Assembly: GCA_023014335.1 (NCBI GenBank)
Contig: JAECYW010000020.1
Location: forward strand, 496,001-560,000
Length of the DNA stretch: 64,000 nucleotides
Direction of reading: 5' to 3'
Source of the DNA: Galerina marginata
Lineage: Eukaryota > Basidiomycota > Agaricomycetes > Agaricales > Galerinaceae
This document shows, piece after piece, positions 8,369-20,403 of this stretch. Below the pieces are notes generated by a model. That model worked only from the letters and a program-made list of their open reading frames with translations. It was not told the DNA's origin and did not search any database. The position numbers and the translations under genes were made by a program. How positions within the stretch are numbered: position 1 is the first letter of the stretch; every line of letters starts with the position of its first letter.

Positions 8369-8374
8369 GACTTC
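8369..8374. repeat. Left target-site duplication GACTTC
   Basis: GACTTC abuts the left inverted repeat and is exactly repeated at 18535-18540 next to the right one. This fits a single insertion with a 6-bp staggered cut. Confidence 0.9.
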
Positions 8375-8466
8375 TATGCTGTTCAATGTGGGGAAATATT
8401 ATTTTAGCACAAAAACATACATTAGCGCACACAATCTGACCTTTTTTTGGCATGTCTGAGCACACA
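8375..8466 (+). repeat. Left terminal inverted repeat (92 bp)
   Basis: Matches the reverse complement of 18445-18534 over its whole length with one substitution (catg versus cacg) and a 2-bp difference in a T run. It begins TATGCTGTTCAATGTGGGG. Further in, GCGCACAC/GCACACA motifs recur (near 8425, 8459, 8479 and 8526) and may be subterminal integrase sites. Confidence 0.92.
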
Positions 8467-8669
8467 CAAAACTTTGAGCGCACACAATTTCTGAGTCACC
8501 CGCACAAACATGACAAAATTTTCACGCGCACACATGACCAGGTGAACAAAGCATCACCACACATCGCGTGTCTGTTTATAGCCTTGACAATTGCCAGGAG
8601 CCGCCTAATACCCCATTCCCACTTCTATCTGTCTTCTCAGCGGTCCATTTTGGCTTATTTTCTCTCACC

Positions 8670-10623
8670 ATGCCAGAAGATGGTGAAATTAGCGTTATTA
8701 TCCATCAGATATTTGCTAAAATCATCAAGCTTTCCAAAAAGGAGGGAATGTCACCAATAGGTATGCTTTGTCTCGTGCTTTTGACACTAGCCAATGTATT
8801 AATTCATCGAGCAGGCTATTTACAGTTGTTCTCAAGGTGCTTCAGTTTGGGAACAAAGAACAAGCCCTACTCCAGTATCTCCATCGACAATTCCAGGTAC
8901 ACCGAGTCCCTTGAGGCTGCAGATACTTCCTTCATCCCCAACCCCTTTGACCTCAGTCGAGCGTCGAAAAAACCATGGGCTTACCTCATAAATAAACAGC
9001 TAGAACCTGGAAGAATTTGTCTGGCTCGCCGAGGAAAGTGTCTAGCAATTGCGGCAGGCTATGTATGTCCAGCCAGGTTAAACTTACAATTTATCCTGAC
9101 TGAAAATATTTACCTTACTAGCACCTCACAACATTTCACCTTGGCTTGGAGGCTAAGGTCACCCTTATGTCCCGACAGGATTACGACAAGCTTGTTGCCA
9201 ACGACTGCCCAGGATCAAATCAAAACAAGACCAAGGCAGAAAAAATGCGATCCTTTAGCTTGCCTTCCGATTTTATTGAACCTGGGTCATCCTCCACAGC
9301 CAAACGTACTATCAATGTCTTCGCAGCAATTGTTTCTGATTCTTTTGCTATTGTGTTTTCTGATTTTGCTCGGCTCATACGTATCCATGTTACGAGCATT
9401 GACCGCCACTGGACCGAAGAAGACCTTGAGGTTGGTTCCCCAGTAGGTCTTCTAATTTTCTCTTTTCCTATTGCTTCTAACTATTGTCTTAGGAATGGTC
9501 TCTTATTTGGGATGCATTTCCTGATGGACCAGACTGGGTTCTTGAACGAGATGCTGCCCTTTCTTCTCTTGAAAAGTGGCGATCTGACATGCGGACTGGA
9601 GAAACTGGCCATTCCAAGGCTATTGTCGATGTGATAGCCGAAAATAGCAACAGAACTTTTGCTGGCTTTGGAAGACATCTTGCAAATGACTTCCTTCACT
9701 ATGCTGCAATTTTTCCTGGTGCACCCTGTTCCTGGATTTGTTCAGATGATGTACGGTTCAACCGCTTCAAATCCCTGATTCTGAGTTACACTCAGATGTG
9801 GCGTTCTCCTGACTTTCTAAGAAGATGTGGCATGTCAACAAACTCAACTAATCCATTTGCTTTCAACACTACGTCTGACCGCAATTATACCACTGGATTT
9901 ATCTGGGTATTCAGAAAGAAAACCGTCGAGATTCCCTCCGATTTATATAATGTATATCTCCAGGAAGGATTGTTCGATCCAGCCCATACAATCGGTGAGT
10001 TGCTTACTTCTCCTTTGTCCCTTGCTCACATTTTATGACCCAGGTGAACCATATCAATACAATGGCACCGGCTGTGATAAGGCGTTCAAGCGTGTTGACG
10101 TGAACTATCACTCTCACCTTGACGCCTTTACTGTCATCACTGCAAAAGTACCTGACGGCTGGAAGGATGGACCAATTGTAGGTATTTCATGATATTATCT
10201 ATTCGTCTCTAACAGTACTTCTCTACAGCAACCCTTCTCAGATTTGAGGGAAGCAGGGTACAGTACGACGATAGGACCATCTCAATTTTTTGAAGCCAAG
10301 CAAAACAAGATAGATCCTGACCATGCAATGAAGGTTTGCCTACGAGTCGGTCGACCAGCAAAGGTAAGTTCTTTACTTGTCTTCAACACCGAGCTCTTTT
10401 AATTTGTTCGTAGCTACCATCTGACGGTCCTGGTAAAAAGCGGAAGACACCAACAATGCAGTCTCTTATGAAGCTAAAACCTCCACCTCCCAAGAAACAG
10501 AAACTCAGTGACAAAAGTGAAGATAAGAAGGAGAATGACAACCTGCTTCTTTCACCTGATAAAACAAAGCCAATCTCACCTCCTCAACGTTTAACTCGGT
10601 CTAGAAAGCGAAAGACCTTCTAA
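8670..10623 (+). CDS. Transposon accessory protein, unknown family (504 aa, 8 exons)
   Basis: Exons 8670-8760, 8826-8896, 9000-9062, 9122-9430, 9493-9994, 10044-10177, 10229-10363 and 10414-10623 close in phase to 504 codons plus stop. The start ATG sits in a good context (CACCATGCC). I do not recognise the family. The N-terminus is a short helical part (EDGEISVIIHQIFAKIIKL). The middle has Trp- and aromatic-rich segments (EWSLIWDAFPDGPDWVLERD; FIWVFRKKTVEIPSDLYNVY). The last 80 residues are very basic and disordered, with likely nuclear localisation signals (PGKKRKT, PPPPKKQKL) and an RSRKRKTF end. It is the first gene inside the left inverted repeat and is transcribed inward, so it is probably an element function or conserved passenger. 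Intron 2 (103 nt) is longer than the others and is the weakest junction. Confidence 0.72.
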
Positions 10624-10754
10624 AGTTTTTAGATTCATAAAATTTATTATATCTAAGTGTACTTTCAACTTAATGACAATGCTTTCAATCAACACAGGAA
10701 GTAAATGACAGAGTTGGTCAAGGTCTTTGATATTCTAGCTTAAGGATACCTGCA

Positions 10755-12340
10755 GAAGCGGGGTAATACACATAAATGAGTGTAGCTCCGTCAAATCTCA
10801 ACGCAATTTCACGAACCTGGGCTTCCCATAATCCTTAATGCATTCGTCATCCATCCCTGGAGTTGAAAAAAACCCAGGCAGTAAGCTTGGATTTGAGGAA
10901 CTTAAGTTTGACTGCCCCCACGGTGTAAAACACATGAATGATCATAGCTCCATCAAATCTCAACGCAAATCCACGAACCTGGGCTTCCCATAATCCTTAA
11001 TACATTCGTTGACTAGCTGTGGGGTAGAAAAAACCCCAGGCAGTAAGCTTGAATTAGAGGAACTTAAGCTTGGCTGCATCTACGGTGTAAAACACATGAA
11101 TGATCATAGCTCCATCAAATCTCAACGCAAATCCACAAACCTGGGCATTCCAGAATCCTTAATACATTCGTTGACTAGCTGTGGGGTCGAGAAAACCCCA
11201 GGCAGTAAGCTTGAATTAGAGGAACTTAAGTTTGCCTGCACCTACGGTGTAAAACACATGAATGATCATAGCTCCATCAAAACTGGATGCAATTGCACGA
11301 ACCTGGGCTTCCCAGAATCCTTAATACATTCGTTGACTAGCTGTGGGGTCGAAAAAACCCCAGGCAGTAAGCTTGAATTAGAGGAACTTAAGCTTGGCTG
11401 CATCTACAGTGTAAAACACATGAATGATCATAGCTCCATCAAATCTCAACGCAAATCCACGAACCTGGGCATTCCAGAATCCATAATACATTCGTTGACT
11501 AGCTGTGGGGTCGAAAAAACCCCAGGCAGTAAGCTTGAATTAGAGGAACTTAAGCTTGGCTGCATCTACGGTGTAAAACACATGAATGATCATAGCTCCA
11601 TCAAATCTCAACGCAAATCCACGAACCTGGGCTTCCCAGAATCCTTAATACATTCGTTGACTAGCTGTGGGGTCGAGAAAACCCCAGGCAGTAAGCTTGA
11701 AGTGGAGAAACTTGAGGTTATCTGCATCTACGGTGTAAAACAGATGAATGAGTGTAGCTCCGTCAAATCTCAACGCAATTTCACGAACCTGAGCTTCCCA
11801 GAATCCTTAATGCATTCGTCATCCATCCCTAGGGTCAAAAAAACTCCAGGCAGTAAGCTTGAAGTGGAGAAACTTAAGGTTACCTGCATCTACGGTGTAA
11901 AACAGATGAATGACCATAGCTCCGTCAAATCTCAACGCAAATCCACGAACCTGGGCTTCCCAGAATCCTTAATACATTCGTTGACTAGCTGTGGGGTCGA
12001 GAAAACTCCAGCTGAATAGGTTTCATTTGAGGAATACAAACATACCCGCTCCTATGCACCAAATCACATCAATGAGTATAACTCCACTAAATCCTGGTGC
12101 CAATTTCACGAACCTAGGCTTGCCAGTATCCTCAATACATTCGTTAACCATGCCCAGGGTCGAAAAAGCTCCAGGAAAACAGGATAGCTTCAAAGAATAC
12201 GAGCATATCCACTCTTAAAGGGTGAAATTCATAAATTAGCATAACTTTACTAAATCTCAAGGTAAACTAACGAACCTGTGCTTTTCAGAGTCCTCACTAG
12301 ATTCGTTAACCACACCTGGGGGTCGAAAACTCCAGGTGAA
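10755..12340. repeat. Tandem array of a 162-bp unit, about ten copies
   Basis: The landmark GTGTAAAACACATGAATGA returns at 10924, 11086, 11248, 11410, 11572, 11734 and 11896, a spacing of exactly 162 bp, with degenerate copies on both sides. Because 162 is a multiple of three, one frame stays open for 336 codons (11009-12019) and would encode 54-residue repeats containing VEKTPGSKLELEELKL. I see no splice signals, signal peptide or start context for that ORF. I therefore call the region a minisatellite inside the transposon, not a gene. Confidence 0.88.
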
Positions 12341-12611
12341 CAGTGTACTTTTGAGGACTATGAGCATATCACCAGCATTGGCAGCATATCTCTATCATTG
12401 ATCGAGTCTCAAATGGGTTTTCACATACCTAAGCTTCTTTCAATCTTTAGACAGCTGCCCAGAATGTTGACAAAGACTCAGGGAGAAAGGTTCAGTTTGA
12501 GAAACGTAGGAATGTCAGTAGAGGTGAGATGTCAAGTGATAAGTTGGACCGGTGCACGATATCAAAGTGAAGCCCATATTCCCACGACATCTGGCAAGTC
12601 GTAAACTCGCA

Positions 12612-12939
12612 ACAGTTAGTCAACAATTTCACGTCGTTCTGTCCCTATAAAAATTATGGAAATGTGGTCTTAAGGGTGTTATGTATCCAGGGAAATTATA
12701 ATCCACTTGATTATGAGAAGGGATTTTCCATGATGGAACCTGCAATTTATAGGACACCTGCAGTGATTCCCACCAAATTCCCACAGCTCACGGCAGGGCA
12801 TGGGCTTGAAACAGTTAGTCAACAATTTCACATCCTTCTGTACCTTCAAAAAAACCAGAAATGTGGTCTTAAGGGTGCTATGTATCTAAGGAAATTATAA
12901 TCCATTTGATTATGAGAAGGGATTTTCCATGACAGAGCC
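12612..12939. repeat. Direct duplication, 199-bp spacing
   Basis: About 129 bp starting ACAGTTAGTCAACAATTTCA at 12612 is repeated from 12811 with a few substitutions (both copies contain ATGTGGTCTTAAGGGTG and TATGAGAAGGGATTTTCCA). It lies in the gene-poor middle of the transposon. No coding role is visible. Confidence 0.8.
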
Positions 12940-13192
12940 GGAAGATCTCTGCGGACAAGGTCGACGGTTGCTCAAGTACTAACACCCCCAAACAGTGTCA
13001 ATGGTTGATGGTTGGTCGTGCTTCTTACCTCTTACTGTCTGGTTATCTGGATTGCTCGTTTCATATGCTGTTGAAAGCTCTATATTTTCTGCTACTTCTA
13101 TTTTCTATGCCACTAAATGCAAGCTGTTGAAAGCATGCTCACAAACCACTGGTATATATTGTTTGACGCGCTCTGGTGCTCTGAGTCCGAGA

Positions 13193-14824
13193 TTACTCGA
13201 AAATATTCGATGGTGGTTGCTTCCACTTGTTGGTCCCCATGTGGTAAAGGTCTTTCCCATCGTCCGAGGAAGACACGGTAATACTGGGGCTTCGTTTGCG
13301 TTTGGTAGGCTTCTTCCTAGCTGCCTTGGTCAAGTTCGCAACTTTCTTGGAGCTATGATCAGAATTGTCATCGCTAATATTCTGTGGACCTTATCAGCAG
13401 TACACGGATGAAGAAATGGCTAGGAGTCACATACAATAACTTGCTCTTCTGGTGGCTGAATGTTAGCCATTGTGGACGCTCCTACAATGGTGGATGAAGA
13501 TGCATGATTGCTTGAAGATCCCAGAGTGGAATAGCTGACCGCTACATGCTCGGCCTTGCTCAAAGCCAGTGTATGCAGGATTTCGTTGTCAGCGCTGTCC
13601 GACTCGCCATCCCTCAAAAACAATGCTTCTTCTGTTTCGGAATCCAGCACAACTGATAAGCAAGGTAAGTCGTACATTCACTGAATGAATAAATTATACA
13701 CACTTGCACGGTTCTTCCCCTTATCTTTTACTCGTGAAGTACGGCGCGCTGGTTTCTTTGGTGTTGTGGTTGGGGTAATGTCATCGTCCGATGATGTTAT
13801 TTCTTCTTTACCCGAACCTGGATCGTCTTCAATGGCATTCCGAGTACCTGGCATAGAAGAAGATATTGTCAGTATCACAACCAGACTCAAAGCGGTCAAG
13901 GAAAAGTACCAATCCACAAGTAGCTATCTCTGGTTGGCCCACCCGCACGGCCACGATTCTGAAATGCTCGCGCCCCAGTAAGGTTTTCTGATGGGGTAAC
14001 TCGCAACTCTGTATAATGCTTCGACAGCAGAACATAAGGGAATTTCTGCCCTGCCTCCAAAGGAACATTATCATCATCATCTAGATCTGACATCCAGGGA
14101 CACTCCGCAATGAAAATATCAAACACTTCTGGGAATAGCCCATGAAGAAAAGCGTTCATCTTCTTGATCCCCCACTCCTCAAAAAACTCCAGGCGACCAT
14201 GATTGCTACCGTGAGTTATTGCCAGCTTTCGGCTCTCCAAGATCTGGATAGCATGTTTGTCTGGGGCGCTTTTGATGTTCAGCTCGTCTTTTTTCTATGA
14301 TTCAATGAAGGTCAGTCTCAATTCAAAAAAGATTATGATGTTAAAGACATTACATTAAGACCACACGTTATGAAAACTATGTTGCCCACCACACGCTTTG
14401 TGCCTTTGAATTCCTTGTCAGGCTGCAGACGGAAAGTTAGAGGAAGAAGGGGAGAGGAGTCACGACTGAACAATTGACTCACCTTTTTCTCTTTTGACGT
14501 TGCGGATCCAGCCTTTTTGGACTTCTCTTGTTTCACCGTTGATTTTCCAGTGAGTGACTCGTTGGTCTCCTTTCTAGCAGCAAGAAGTGCTTCTTGACCC
14601 TTTCCACTGATAATTTGCTTGAAAATGTCTTGTACAACCTTGGGGGGAGCTCCATCATGAACACTTCGACCATGGCAACACTCCTGGCAGAGTACCGGCA
14701 CACCCGCTACCTTTTCCTCTGGGTCGTCGTACTCCTTACAGGAGCATGGCTTGCCATTTTCAAGAACTGCTGTACAATGGCCGGTACCTTTTCTCTTTTT
14801 CGGTGCAGGGGGGGCGTCGTCCAT
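13193..14824 (-). CDS. Transposon accessory protein with Cys-rich N-terminus (448 aa, 6 exons)
   Basis: Exons 14824-14483, 14422-14354, 14294-13910, 13847-13704, 13652-13435 and 13381-13193 join in phase to 448 codons plus stop. Residues about 15-50 carry a Cys/His cluster (GTGHCTAVLENGKPCSCKEY, then PVLCQECCHG), likely a zinc-binding module. A Lys-rich linker follows, then a conserved-looking central region (EFKGTKRVVGNIVFITCGLN; GRLEFFEEWGIKKMNAFLHG). The tail is acidic and Ser-rich with basic patches (KKPTKRKRSPSITVSSSDD). The product is unknown; the composition suggests a nuclear, nucleic-acid-associated protein. Its start lies 160 bp downstream of the integrase stop on the same strand, so the two may be co-regulated element genes. 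An upstream in-frame ATG at 14899 would add 25 residues. Intron 5 (13434-13382) is inferred from coding quality downstream of it. Confidence 0.7.
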
Positions 14825-14983
14825 GATATGACTAGTCCAGAAAAATAATGGGAAGATAACAAGCTCTGAGGACCTCAAGCAAATTGACTCCGGCATCAAA
14901 TAGTGCCGGTGCTGAAATGTGAGCTATACTCTCCTTTTTCTTAAATGTCTGATAACAAGAACGATAGTAATAATGGCTTCTAG

Positions 14984-17033
14984 CTAGGCATTTACATCCT
15001 CAAGCTCATATAATACATGCATCATGCATGCTAGCGCTTGTGCCCAACGCTTTCCTCGCGGCCTCCAGATCGAATCAGGCAAGCTTACAGTAAGTTCTTT
15101 TCGCTTTCGTCCAGTCTTAAGTGTTTCAACCGAAGGATATTCGCCATCCTCCCACTCCTCCTCTTTGATTCCGTATCCCGGTGGAATAATGTCCTGTTCT
15201 GAGACTTTGTCGAGTAGAGTCTCAAACAGTGCTAGGCCCGTCTCTCCAAATGGGCAAGATTTCATTGGAACCGGGACAGGAGGGTGAACGACATGGCCCT
15301 CTTGATCCACCACTAACCTTTCTCCCAGGTCTTCCGGAATCTCAATATCTTCATATTCGTCTTCACTATCCTCTTCTTCTTCTGGATTACCAGCACCAGT
15401 TTGATGTGGACGCCTGACGACCCCACGCCTTGTTGTACCCAGATATTGTTGTAAAACAGCAGGATGGACCGAGTCAAACTCATCTTCTAAGTAAACACCG
15501 CCTGTTGTTTGCCCCTCGAAGCGTATTGCCTGGAAAAATTAATTAGCTTTGACAGGAAGAAGTAATATATTTACAGACATTTGGGCTGCGGTCTTTTGTA
15601 TCACGCCCTGAGATCGGATGTGCATTCCAATTTTCCTGAAAATCTTCGCAGTCCTTCTGAACCGACTGAAGGAATAGATAATGAAGAAGCCAGAGGTGGA
15701 TAGGATTACTTTTGTCCAATCGGTGAAGTCGTCCCAGCCGAGTAAAAAAGGCTCGCCAGGCACGACCAAATGATCGGCCTACTTCTACCCACAAACGCTC
15801 TATCCGAGTGTTATGTGTTGACCTAAGAGATTTAGGTAGTTAGTATGACACAAGGAAGAGTAGGCAACAAGATATGCTTACGAGCCCCACATGAACGAAG
15901 CTCTATTTGGGCCACGTTTCAAAATCATCCATACGGAGAGTTCTACATTCTCTCCTCCTCTGTCGCCTCGAAGACGAGAAGGTATACCATATCTTGCAAT
16001 TGCATCCATAAAAACTTGAAGAACTGTATCCGCTTGGTTATTTGTGCTGGCTCTTATGCCTGTCACCTGGGGTTATGATAATTTAGACGGAATAAATGAA
16101 TGTGAGACAGGCAAAAGGAACGCACTGTACGACAGTAGCCATCAATGAAGCCATGGATGACAATTCCCCATTGGATTAGCTTGTGGTGCCCGTCGCAATG
16201 CCAGAGAAAGTTGGGCCGTGGAGAAGTATACTTGCGACGCTGGATGGCAGTTCGTTGTCGGAGAGCTTGCCCCAGCCCATCAACACGGCTGAGGGATTGG
16301 TGAACTCGCCGCTTCTGAATACGGAGGTTGTGTCTTCGGAGAAACCCAACAAGATACCGAATTCCAGTGTCCGGTTGCTGCTGCTTGAAAGTGCGGACAA
16401 GAATATCTAGATCAGCATTGGAAAGGTCGGAGAACTTCCGCTCAACACCATACATCCTCAAGTAATGGTAGAGAGTTTTCCGATCAACCTTGAGGAGTCT
16501 GGCTAATGCTGCGACTGAGATATTTCGCTGTGGTGACATAGCTTCCTGTAGGTATGCAAAGTTAATAACCTTGCGAGGACGGCCAGGTTTCCCAGTACGA
16601 ATGATTGTGATTGGATCAACCATTCCAACATTAGAATTATCACTAAAATAACAGATCTTAGGCTCCTTGCTAGAAAGATTCAAGGGAAGACTTACACTCC
16701 ATCCGCTCCTTGGAGGGCGGTTTGTATATAAACGATCATCAGTGCCATTGTGGTTGCGGCTGCCTCTAACCAATGAACTGGAATGCTCTCTTGGTCTTTT
16801 TGTTGCTCCATAGCCTCCAAAACAGGCATGAAATGGTTTGTTAAGGTGTCAATTTGGTACTGAAGTCGAATAGGATCTGCTTCTTGACGCAGTATAGCCA
16901 TAGCTCGACTGTATGCACCATTTAATAGAGAAAATGCATTAAGGACGTCGGGAGACCAAGGATCTTCCCCTGGAAGCCTGGCTGGAAGAGGAGGAAAGAC
17001 ATTGGGCAGTTCTGGAGGTTCCATAATTTGCAA
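14984..17033 (-). CDS. DDE integrase/transposase, IS3EU-like (609 aa, 5 exons)
   Basis: Exons 17033-16696, 16642-16126, 16066-15882, 15822-15579 and 15529-14984 join in phase to 609 codons plus stop. After an N-terminal helical region comes a basic AT-hook-like GKPGRPRKV and an HTH (SVAALARLLKVDRKTLYHYL). Next is an IS3 OrfB-like HTH_21 part (RYLVGFLRRHNLRIQKRRVH) and then the retroviral-type integrase core. The acidic triad is visible: D in NFLWHCDGHHKL, D in RLRGDRGGENV and E in THNTRIERLW. The post-core region includes AFFTRLGRLHRLD and WNAHPISGRDTKDRSPN, both typical of fungal integrase-core proteins. An acidic stretch (PEEEEDSEDEYEDIEIPEDL) precedes the C-terminus. Nothing is broken, so catalytic activity is plausible. 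It should cut and join the inverted repeats that flank the element. A start at 17024 is an alternative. Confidence 0.88.
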
Positions 17034-17190
17034 GGAGAGGGAGACGGCAGTTGTGGATCGTGATCAGGTGTCACACAAGCGACCTCTTGTTGACGCGTTA
17101 CAAAAACAAGAATCACAGTCAAATTTCTACGTCCAACCCCACTGCTCTCCATAGTGCCACAGGTGACTCATAATCCATTATAAACCAACC

Positions 17191-18247
17191 ATGGAAGCAG
17201 AAACCGAGAACCGAGAAGAGACACCAACGGATACACCAGCTCCTGTGGTGAACACTAGACATCCAGATTTTTACAAGGAACATGGCGATACTATTCTCTT
17301 GGTTTGTTCAGCCTTAGATCATTATACTGCCAGTTATTTAAACATCGGTCAGGTTGAGAAAACTCTCTACAAATTGGACTCTCGAAACCTCTGCGACCTC
17401 TCCGAGTTCTTTGCAGAACTATTCGCAATCCCACAAGGTCAATATGTGGAAGGGAAGTCGGATGAGAAGCCCATTGTCGTAGAGATGGTGACCGCAGAGG
17501 AGTTCGATCATTTGATTTTGGCCTGCATTCATGTTGAGTGAGTCGCAGTAACTACAGTCCAGAGGCATACTTACTCACAGAAGCTTGAGATGGTCAGCTC
17601 CACCACACCCAGTCAAGCGTTACCTCGATGTGTTGAAGTTGGCAACCATGTGGAGATTCCGCAAATATGTCAAGGACATGGCGATATATAAGCTCATGAA
17701 GTACACCAGCAAGGAATTTCCTGCTGTTGAGAGGTTGTACCTAGCGCGACGATACGATATCCCAGAATTTGTGGAACCAGCTTTCACCGAGCTTTGCAGG
17801 CGGAGCACTAGCCTCTCTGATCTCAGCGTCAGCGATGTTCTTCGTCTCGGCTTATCCATCTACGAGGTACTCACCAAGGTCAGAGAAGCTATTGCAAAAG
17901 ATAGGCGATGGTTCGCATATCATGCACCCAAATTGAGTACTGTCCCAAGACCCGATGAATGCTCCCGTATCGAACACAAACAATGCAAGAAGGCGTGGAA
18001 GGCGGAGTGGTGGAATGTCATGGGCCGCCGTATCTTACAACCAGTTGACATTTTTGCCCTCAACTTCCAGTATGAAGCCGAAGAGGTTCTGGGTTCGATG
18101 ACTGTGCCAGGGATGAACCCGAGTTGTCTGGGTGCGATCATGGACTTCGTGACATCTGGTAATGCCCTCCAGTTCGAGAAGGTTCATATTGGTAATGGGG
18201 TGAAAGAGTTGTTACGGCGTTTAGAAGAAGGTCGGCTTAACTATTAG
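17191..18247 (+). CDS. BTB/POZ domain protein carried inside the transposon (337 aa)
   Basis: Two exons, 17191-17537 and 17581-18247, joined by a 43-nt phase-2 intron. After a disordered start, HPDFYKEHGDTILLVCSALD begins a BTB fold of the kind abundant in Agaricomycetes. It continues with FFAELFAIPQGQYVEGKSDE, EEFDHLILACIHVE and, after the intron, HPVKRYLDVLKLATMWRFRK. The C-terminal helical part (ERLYLARRYDIPEFVEPAFT; SDVLRLGLSIYEVL) matches the usual layout of these host proteins. Such proteins often act as protein-protein adaptors or CUL3 substrate receptors; the role here is unknown. The gene sits 157 bp from the divergently transcribed integrase start and wholly inside the inverted repeats, so it is cargo. 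Its frame is intact. It is the only element gene with a clear host-family identity. Confidence 0.85.
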
Positions 18248-18444
18248 ATATTTATCCCCAGAGTCAAGCCCAGAAGATAGTACCCTAGAGCCAGATTATG
18301 CAAGTTATGTGAATGCAAGCGAGGAATTGAGGAATTGAGTGAGATTGTCAAAGTGTGTGCTACTGTGTGAATTGTGTGCGCCTCATTGTAAACATGTGTG
18401 CCGCTCTTTTCTCACGGAATGATTGTGCGCTCCTTACATGCAAC

Positions 18445-18534
18445 TGTGTGCTCAGACGTGCCAAAAAGGTCAGATTGTGTGCGCTAATGTATGTTTTTGT
18501 GCTAAAATAATATTTCCCCACATTGAACAGCATA
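18445..18534 (-). repeat. Right terminal inverted repeat (90 bp)
   Basis: Reverse complement of the left end; the outermost bases read CAGCATA next to GACTTC. Inside it, GTGTGC/TGTGCGC motifs recur between 18350 and 18480, mirroring the GCGCACAC motifs of the left end. Confidence 0.92.
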
Positions 18535-18540
18535 GACTTC
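18535..18540. repeat. Right target-site duplication GACTTC
   Basis: Identical to 8369-8374. Removing the element and one copy would leave a simple uninterrupted site reading ...AAACGCA-GACTTC-AGCGGTC.... Confidence 0.9.
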
Positions 18541-19116: not shown

Positions 19117-20403
19117 ATGTTCAACTTCAAATCTTTCATCGTCGCAGCAGCTATCAGCTCGGTGCGCGCTCTTACGAGCTCGCTCCAGCAGGTGACTGCA
19201 AACTTTGGAGCCAACCCCACCAATGTCCAAATGTATGTCTACAAGCCGACGGCGCTCGCCATACCCACACCGCTTATAGTCGCCATGCATTATTGCACGG
19301 GCACAGCGCAGGCCTACTTCTCCGGGACATCTCTGGCCCAACTCGCAGACCAACACGGCTTTATCGTCGTCTACCCAAACGCCCCCACTGCCGGTGGCTG
19401 CTGGGATGTCCATTCTACCGGAACGCTGACTCACAACGGAGGCGGAGACTCCCTTGGTATCGCCAATGTTGTCCGCTACGCCATTGCAAACTGGGGCGTC
19501 GACTCCACCCGCGTGTTCGCAACTGGCACGTCATCGGGTGCTATGATGACCAACGTCCTCATGGGCGCTTACCCGGACATCTTTGCTGCTGGATCTCTGT
19601 ACTCAGGCGTCCCGTACGGCTGCTTCGCGGGCACGGATGCCTGGAGTAACCAATGCGCGACTGGACAGCTCATCCAGACACCACAGCAGTGGGGTGACTT
19701 GGTCAGGAGCGGTTACCCAGGCTTTACTGGCACCCGCCCCAAGATCCAATTCTGGCACGGCACAGCGTAAGACGTTAATTCTTGACATGACCTAATGATT
19801 AACTCACTGAAATTCGCAGAGATACGACCCTCTACCCGCAGAACTTCTGGGAAGAGATCAAACAGTGGACCAACGTCTTCGGCGTCAGCCAGACGCCCAC
19901 CACTAACTTGAGCTCGAACCCACAGGCTGGATATTCCCGTGCTTCATTCGGGCCCAGCGTCCAAGGCATTCTTGCTCAAGGTGTTGGTCACACTGTCCCG
20001 GAACATGAAACCGACACACTCGATTGGTTCGGCCTGAGCTCACTCACGCCTGGAGGTTCTCCAGTCACCACCACCAAGCCTGTTACTACAGGGCCAACCA
20101 CAACCTCTGTTCCTCCAGTAACGACCGTCACCCCCACAACGACTGTCCCTCCAGTGACAACTGTTCCACCTACAGGCGGGACTGCCGCTCACTGGGCACA
20201 GTGTGCAGGGATTGGCTACACCGGACCTACAGGTACGCTGATCGCTTTTCGAGTTTCCGCGTACAATCGAAGCTGAGTAACTTACAGTCTGTGCGGCTCC
20301 TTACACCTGCAAATATTCCAATGCATACGTGAGTAAATTTCAATGAGGGTTCAAATCGCTCCGGACTCACGACCTTCGATTACAGTATAGCCAGTGTCTC
20401 TAA
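19117..20403 (+). CDS. Secreted CE1 esterase (feruloyl/acetylxylan type) with CBM1
   Basis: Exons 19117-19766, 19820-20232, 20288-20328 and 20386-20403 join in phase to 373 residues. A signal peptide (MFNFKSFIVAAAISSVRA) is followed by a PHB-depolymerase-type alpha/beta hydrolase: PLIVAMHYCTGTA, then the nucleophile elbow FATGTSSGAMMTN, a likely acidic residue in TADTTLYPQNFW, and the histidine in GVGHTVPEHETDTLDWFGL. A Pro/Thr linker of about 45 residues (TTTSVPPVTTVTPTTTVPP) leads to a C-terminal cellulose-binding CBM1 (AHWAQCAGIGYTGPTVCAAP, ending YSQCL). All catalytic parts appear present. The enzyme should remove ester-linked acyl or feruloyl groups from hemicellulose outside the cell; I cannot tell which acyl group it prefers. 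Confidence 0.93.

Follow-up and report, generated by a model that had tools for sequence, protein, structure and literature searches.

According to the consulted parts of PMC10045372, a complete IS3EU family is bounded by TA..TA, usually makes 6-bp duplications and has no HHCC motif; in fungi, IS3EU elements have been counted in Ganoderma and Phlebopus (PMC8955403, PMC12411881, both in part). The portions of PMC10853768 consulted describe a large one, Styx of Zymoseptoria, of 7,927 bp, with four reading frames (the transposase, two frames with GATA and CCHC motifs and one DUF3577), 6-bp duplications and new insertions in a pedigree, and report it only from Zymoseptoria. Multi-gene IS3EU elements of rusts and Tuber indicum carry TET/JBP dioxygenase and alpha-kinase genes, the rust ends being TAYGG..CCRTA, according to the corresponding parts of PMC12730594. 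Here we analysed a stretch of 64,000 nucleotides of Galerina marginata DNA (contig JAECYW010000020.1, positions 496,001 to 560,000; hereafter the window), in which positions 8375-18534 form an element of 10,160 bp. We regard it with good confidence as a complete transposon with an open predicted integrase gene, likely an IS3EU member and likely a cut-and-paste mover.

Both ends of the element were read directly; they, the duplication, the DDE triad and the subterminal one-way arrays described below are features of the sequence itself. A perfect 6-bp target-site duplication (TSD), GACTTC, is found on each flank (8369-8374 on the left and 18535-18540 on the right). The terminal inverted repeats (TIRs) measure 92 bp on the left (8375-8466, forward strand, starting TATGCTGTTCAATGTGGGG) and 90 bp on the right (18445-18534, reverse strand), and BLAST gives 97% identity between the arms: the first 72 bases are identical, and over 92/90 bp the differences amount to a 2-bp run-length gap and one T/C change. 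This pair is the sole exact inverted repeat of at least 20 bp spanning at least 1 kb in the 64-kb window. When followed outward, the exact match reaches 74 bp (8373-18536), the two extra bases matching because GACTTC starts with GA and ends with TC. We placed the boundary at TATG...CATA (in full, TATGC..GCATA) because relatives at C13 and C41 of the same genome stop at this point, each inside its own perfect 6-bp duplication, and also because two copies at C7 lose their right-side homology at ...CATA. The coordinates, duplication and inverted repeats proposed in the initial annotation therefore stand. Joining the flanks in silico to give the empty site left only two frames of at least 40 residues crossing it (73 and 104 residues); hence no interrupted gene is evident.

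The integrase (transposase) gene lies on the reverse strand at 14984-17024. It is predicted to encode 606 aa in five exons (17024-16696, 16642-16126, 16066-15882, 15822-15579 and 15529-14984) that contain no stop, the introns being predicted by eye from GT..AG borders and reading frame. Pfam matched the protein to PF24764 (E=4.9e-59) and, below the rve cut-off, to rve (2.5e-7). The DDE triad is D260, D317 and E352, with spacings of 56 and 34 residues, and the protein lacks an HHCC motif ahead of the core, its first cysteine being residue 259. With its ends, its duplication and an integrase open over five predicted exons, the element is the complete transposon that had been proposed, its DDE integrase predicted to be intact. 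The homologue P0045 was folded with a 25-sequence alignment; its integrase core was predicted with good confidence (whole-model mean pLDDT 70.3) and the predicted structure matches retroviral intasomes, Mu and TnsB. Judged by eye, the N-terminal region of the integrase looks helix-turn-helix-like.

PF24764 matches occur at ten places in the genome, the window locus included. The closest of the other integrases, at C13:279 kb, is about 47% identical in the core and 27-36% outside it. We observed a second complete element there, C13:274742-285919. It is 11,178 bp long, has TATGG..CCATA ends and is flanked on either side by GGTCCG; its 642-bp arms are 98.8% identical. At C41, a 14,669-bp end pair (TSD TCTGCG) is nested in a second pair (TSD CCTACA), with an integrase inside; C41:1981843-1999535 thus holds two nested TATGGGCC end pairs, CCTACA being the perfect 6-bp duplication of the outer and TCTGCG that of the inner, and the 8 further open frames scanned in this nested region gave no Pfam family above cut-off. 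Two copies of a related integrase element at C7 (1461 kb and 1680 kb) are 99.1% identical over 4.7 kb and stop matching on the right at ...CATA, where their flanks differ. This breakpoint shows the CATA terminal sequence independently. The C7 end pattern matched the two right ends and, with 2-3 mismatches, C30, C43 and C4, that is 5 matches versus 1 for the reversed control. The 1680 kb copy is longer by about 594 bases, and the borders of this extra stretch point to an insertion flanked by an 8-bp duplication.

Other candidates in the genome were set aside. At C41:1989302-1992704 a putative element of 3.4 kb, flanked by a 4-bp duplication, was dropped, its 29-bp match belonging to a palindromic repeat. 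C2:1281143-1293410 (TSD TCCTGG, 17/30 end bases alike) is a possible element that we do not claim, because about one such pair is expected by chance (a rough estimate, uncomputed). Neither is a complete element claimed at C26, where the 6-mers next to the left end and to two right ends disagree, and the C23 locus has no convincing ends.

We assign the element to the IS3EU superfamily as its likely class, as the initial annotation did, by the description in the parts of PMC10045372 consulted. It shares with IS3EU/GingerRoot (Repbase; PMC10045372) the 6-bp duplication (GACTTC here, GGTCCG and TCTGCG at two relatives), the TA..TA termini (window, C13, C41 and the C7 right end) and an integrase-like DDE transposase (PF24764; D260, D317, E352) without upstream HHCC. 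An integrase element of another class (Ginger, IS481EU or a small Polinton/Maverick derivative) merely resembling IS3EU is, in our view, improbable. Polintons also have an integrase and make 6-bp duplications, and the 642-bp arms of the C13 relative would suit such an origin; TATG..CATA ends, however, are common to the window, C13 and C41 elements, and the C7 copies show them on the right. Ginger1 and Ginger2 have TGT..ACA-type ends and about 4-bp duplications, unlike the TATG ends and 6-bp duplication found here. Polinton/Maverick genes encode a protein-primed DNA polymerase, a packaging ATPase, a protease and a capsid; none of these families, nor TET/JBP or alpha-kinase, was found in the window frames scanned with Pfam, a scan that was not exhaustive and left many frames aside. 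As for IS481EU, it is poorly separated from IS3EU in the published tree, but its duplications are given as about 4, 15 or 25 bp (PMC10045372, in the parts consulted).

Several observations weigh against our reading of the element as a likely IS3EU mover. The class is set by a published description, our tree holding no reference IS3EU protein, and the window ends, TATGC..GCATA, differ from the rust TAYGG..CCRTA, which the C13 relative fits. The left ends of the two C7 copies were not found. No other copy of the element was detected in the 69.3-Mb genome with its first 126 bp, its last 235 bp and an inner 2,281 bp as queries. Since a single copy was found, we infer mobility from structure alone. 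Genome-wide, the terminal 19-mer gave 13 matches, namely the two own ends (exact) and 11 with 3 mismatches, compared with 12 for the reversed control; such copy counts may be lower bounds.

This also bears on the age of the insertion. The initial annotation had proposed a recent movement and would have counted the lack of any second copy with the same ends as refuting its reading. Recency is not borne out: no second copy was found in this genome for dating, 12 bp of unmutated duplication are weak evidence, and TIR arms may differ already at insertion. The stated ground for refutation does apply within this genome, softened by a Galerina marginata relative known as protein only, GALMADRAFT_46025 (P0005), a partial record that covers 48% of the integrase at 85% identity. 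We built a tree of 99 core sequences, all of them relatives found here, whose bootstrap had not converged; it joins the window integrase to P0005 as sisters (100/100), with 96% identity over 146 columns, the P0005 row filling 43% of the columns. An old and now immobile insertion, its ends and frames intact only through slow evolution of the locus, is conceivable though rather doubtful. The single copy and the decayed gene 2 remnants of older relatives at C17 and C27 (see below) would agree with it, whereas the perfect TSD, the 97% identical arms, the stop-free integrase and the 96% identical integrase stretch in Galerina marginata argue against it.

Besides the integrase, we predicted two genes that recur in the C13 element. 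Gene 2 (13193-14824, reverse strand), downstream of the integrase on the same strand, has six predicted exons for 448 aa; the final three are supported by reading frame and by relics at C17 and C27 that match in part. The protein has an N-terminal Cys/His cluster (cysteines 17, 27, 29, 46, 49 and 50; histidines 16, 51 and 56) and a tail rich in lysine and arginine. The relics, which contain stops and score equally, lie at C17:1186 kb and C27:495 kb, at C17 close to a contig end; they are perhaps a subtelomeric duplication. The BTB-like gene (17191-18247, forward strand), labelled so by eye, is divergent from the integrase and predicted to encode 337 aa in two exons. We found 5 further matches to its protein in the genome, distributed over 4 places. 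The C13 layout equals that of the window element, with gene 2 downstream on the same strand and the BTB-like gene divergent and upstream of the integrase.

We then followed gene 2 into other genomes. The integrase has 181 matches, of which 120 were listed; the named ones among those listed are, as we take it from their genera, Agaricomycetes, except one filed under the plant Salix. Homologues of gene 2 form parts of fused models in other Agaricomycetes. P0005 is itself such a model, running from the C-terminal half of the integrase straight into gene 2 (69% identical over 59% of gene 2). Among the 120 listed, 15 long or fused models were picked by eye for a 17-sequence comparison (E<=0.01). 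Gene 2 of this genome was matched directly by six (P0005, P0020, P0045, P0075, P0094 and P0096), while P0050, P0060 and P0100 connect to it through other models and P0039 only at E=0.006; five (P0053, P0086, P0109, P0110 and P0118) show no connection. Seven of the nine gene-2-connected models are present in the tree, in several separate subclades, which suggests, without proving it, an early presence of gene 2 in this integrase clade. The own-genome integrase loci also divide into several lineages of the tree.

Gene 2 and the BTB-like gene could instead be chance host passengers without a part in transposition, which we think unlikely. Neither protein has a Pfam match, gene 2 was not detected at C41 and is lacking from five of the 15 long models, and BTB-like genes are numerous in mushroom genomes. 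On the other side, both genes keep the same place and orientation in the C13 element, where the integrase core shares only about 47% identity with that of the window, gene 2 comes after the integrase in models across several integrase subclades, and one of the 5 other matches of the BTB-like protein is inside the C13 element.

The BTB-like gene and the conserved cysteine-cluster gene set the window element apart from IS3EU/GingerRoot as described. By description rather than by sequence, it resembles Styx, in that both are large IS3EU-like elements of fungi with 6-bp duplications and several reading frames, and differs from it in size and gene set; with the TET/JBP elements of rusts and Tuber indicum it shares a multi-gene content with another gene opposite to the transposase. 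The element had been taken as unusually large and little described, which holds only in part: Styx and the multi-gene rust elements are already in print (sources seen in part), and relatives of 11.2 and 14.7 kb exist in the same genome, so that size was rejected as a novelty.

The ends carry short motif arrays. All nine GCACACA copies sit no more than 181 bp from an end of the element and point in the same direction relative to that end, with none in the interior: four on the left (8427-8534, forward strand, in a single orientation relative to the end) and five on the right (18354-18482, reverse strand, in mirror orientation). Four copies fall within the TIRs and five outside, and 1 of 1000 shuffles reached those five. 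Similarly, the C13 element has CGAGCCA eight times in the arm counted and the C41 element ACATGTT 17 times, neither reached in 1000 shuffles. We read these arrays as putative integrase binding sites. Against this, ACATGTT also occurs five times in the C41 interior, and arrays are clear in three (window, C13, C41) of the five elements or ends examined: C26 has at most a weak one (3 copies of one 7-mer) and the C7 end has none. Moreover, C41 has its array with no gene 2 detected there; gene 2 is therefore not needed for arrays.

A simple model of transposition would involve the integrase binding the terminal repeats, with its N-terminal region on the GCACACA arrays, pairing both ends and cutting at TATG/CATA. 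It would join the ends to target DNA with a 6-bp stagger, and repair would leave GACTTC twice. As gene 2 travels beside the integrase in several Agaricomycetes, its product may be a conserved accessory factor that acts in the transposition complex or in regulating it; the divergent BTB-like gene would be another accessory gene carried by the element, perhaps with a role towards the host. A bolder version, which we find quite unlikely, supposes a separate mushroom IS3EU lineage with a three-protein machine, to be likened to En/Spm, which uses two proteins. It would combine the integrase, a cysteine-cluster/ubiquitin-like (beta-grasp) protein and the divergent BTB-like protein, with family-specific one-way end arrays as binding sites, and silencing would be disarmed through a host ubiquitin ligase under the direction of the BTB-like and ubiquitin-like parts.

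What is new, as far as we searched, is the conserved gene pair together with the end arrays, large size and extra genes being already known in fungal IS3EU. In the parts of the literature covered, Repbase lying outside the search, neither gene 2 nor end arrays were found described for IS3EU. The single large element can now be compared within a set: one genome holds two complete elements that have both extra genes in common. Gene 2, covered by no Pfam family and fused to the integrase in the gene models examined, is a candidate for a second protein of mushroom IS3EU transposition, because it is shared by two elements with integrase cores only about 47% identical and follows the integrase in models from several mushroom genera.

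The remainder of the element was examined as well. The left internal region (8460-10740, forward strand) is single copy in the genome and has open frames of up to 302 codons, with no Pfam family in the two frames scanned; no host cargo gene was recognised in the element frames scanned. It is followed by a tandem repeat array of 162-bp units at 10759-12336 (7.7 copies over 10759-12011, with longer periods extending to 12336). The unit is a multiple of three and one frame is open for 341 codons. Two 123-bp direct repeats, 89% identical, lie at 12611-12932. Beyond the insertion, an esterase open frame (19117-19770, PF10503) starts 577 bp past the right end of the element, and 19117-20276, next to the insertion, holds open frames that match PF10503 esterase and, just below cut-off, a CBM1 cellulose-binding domain.
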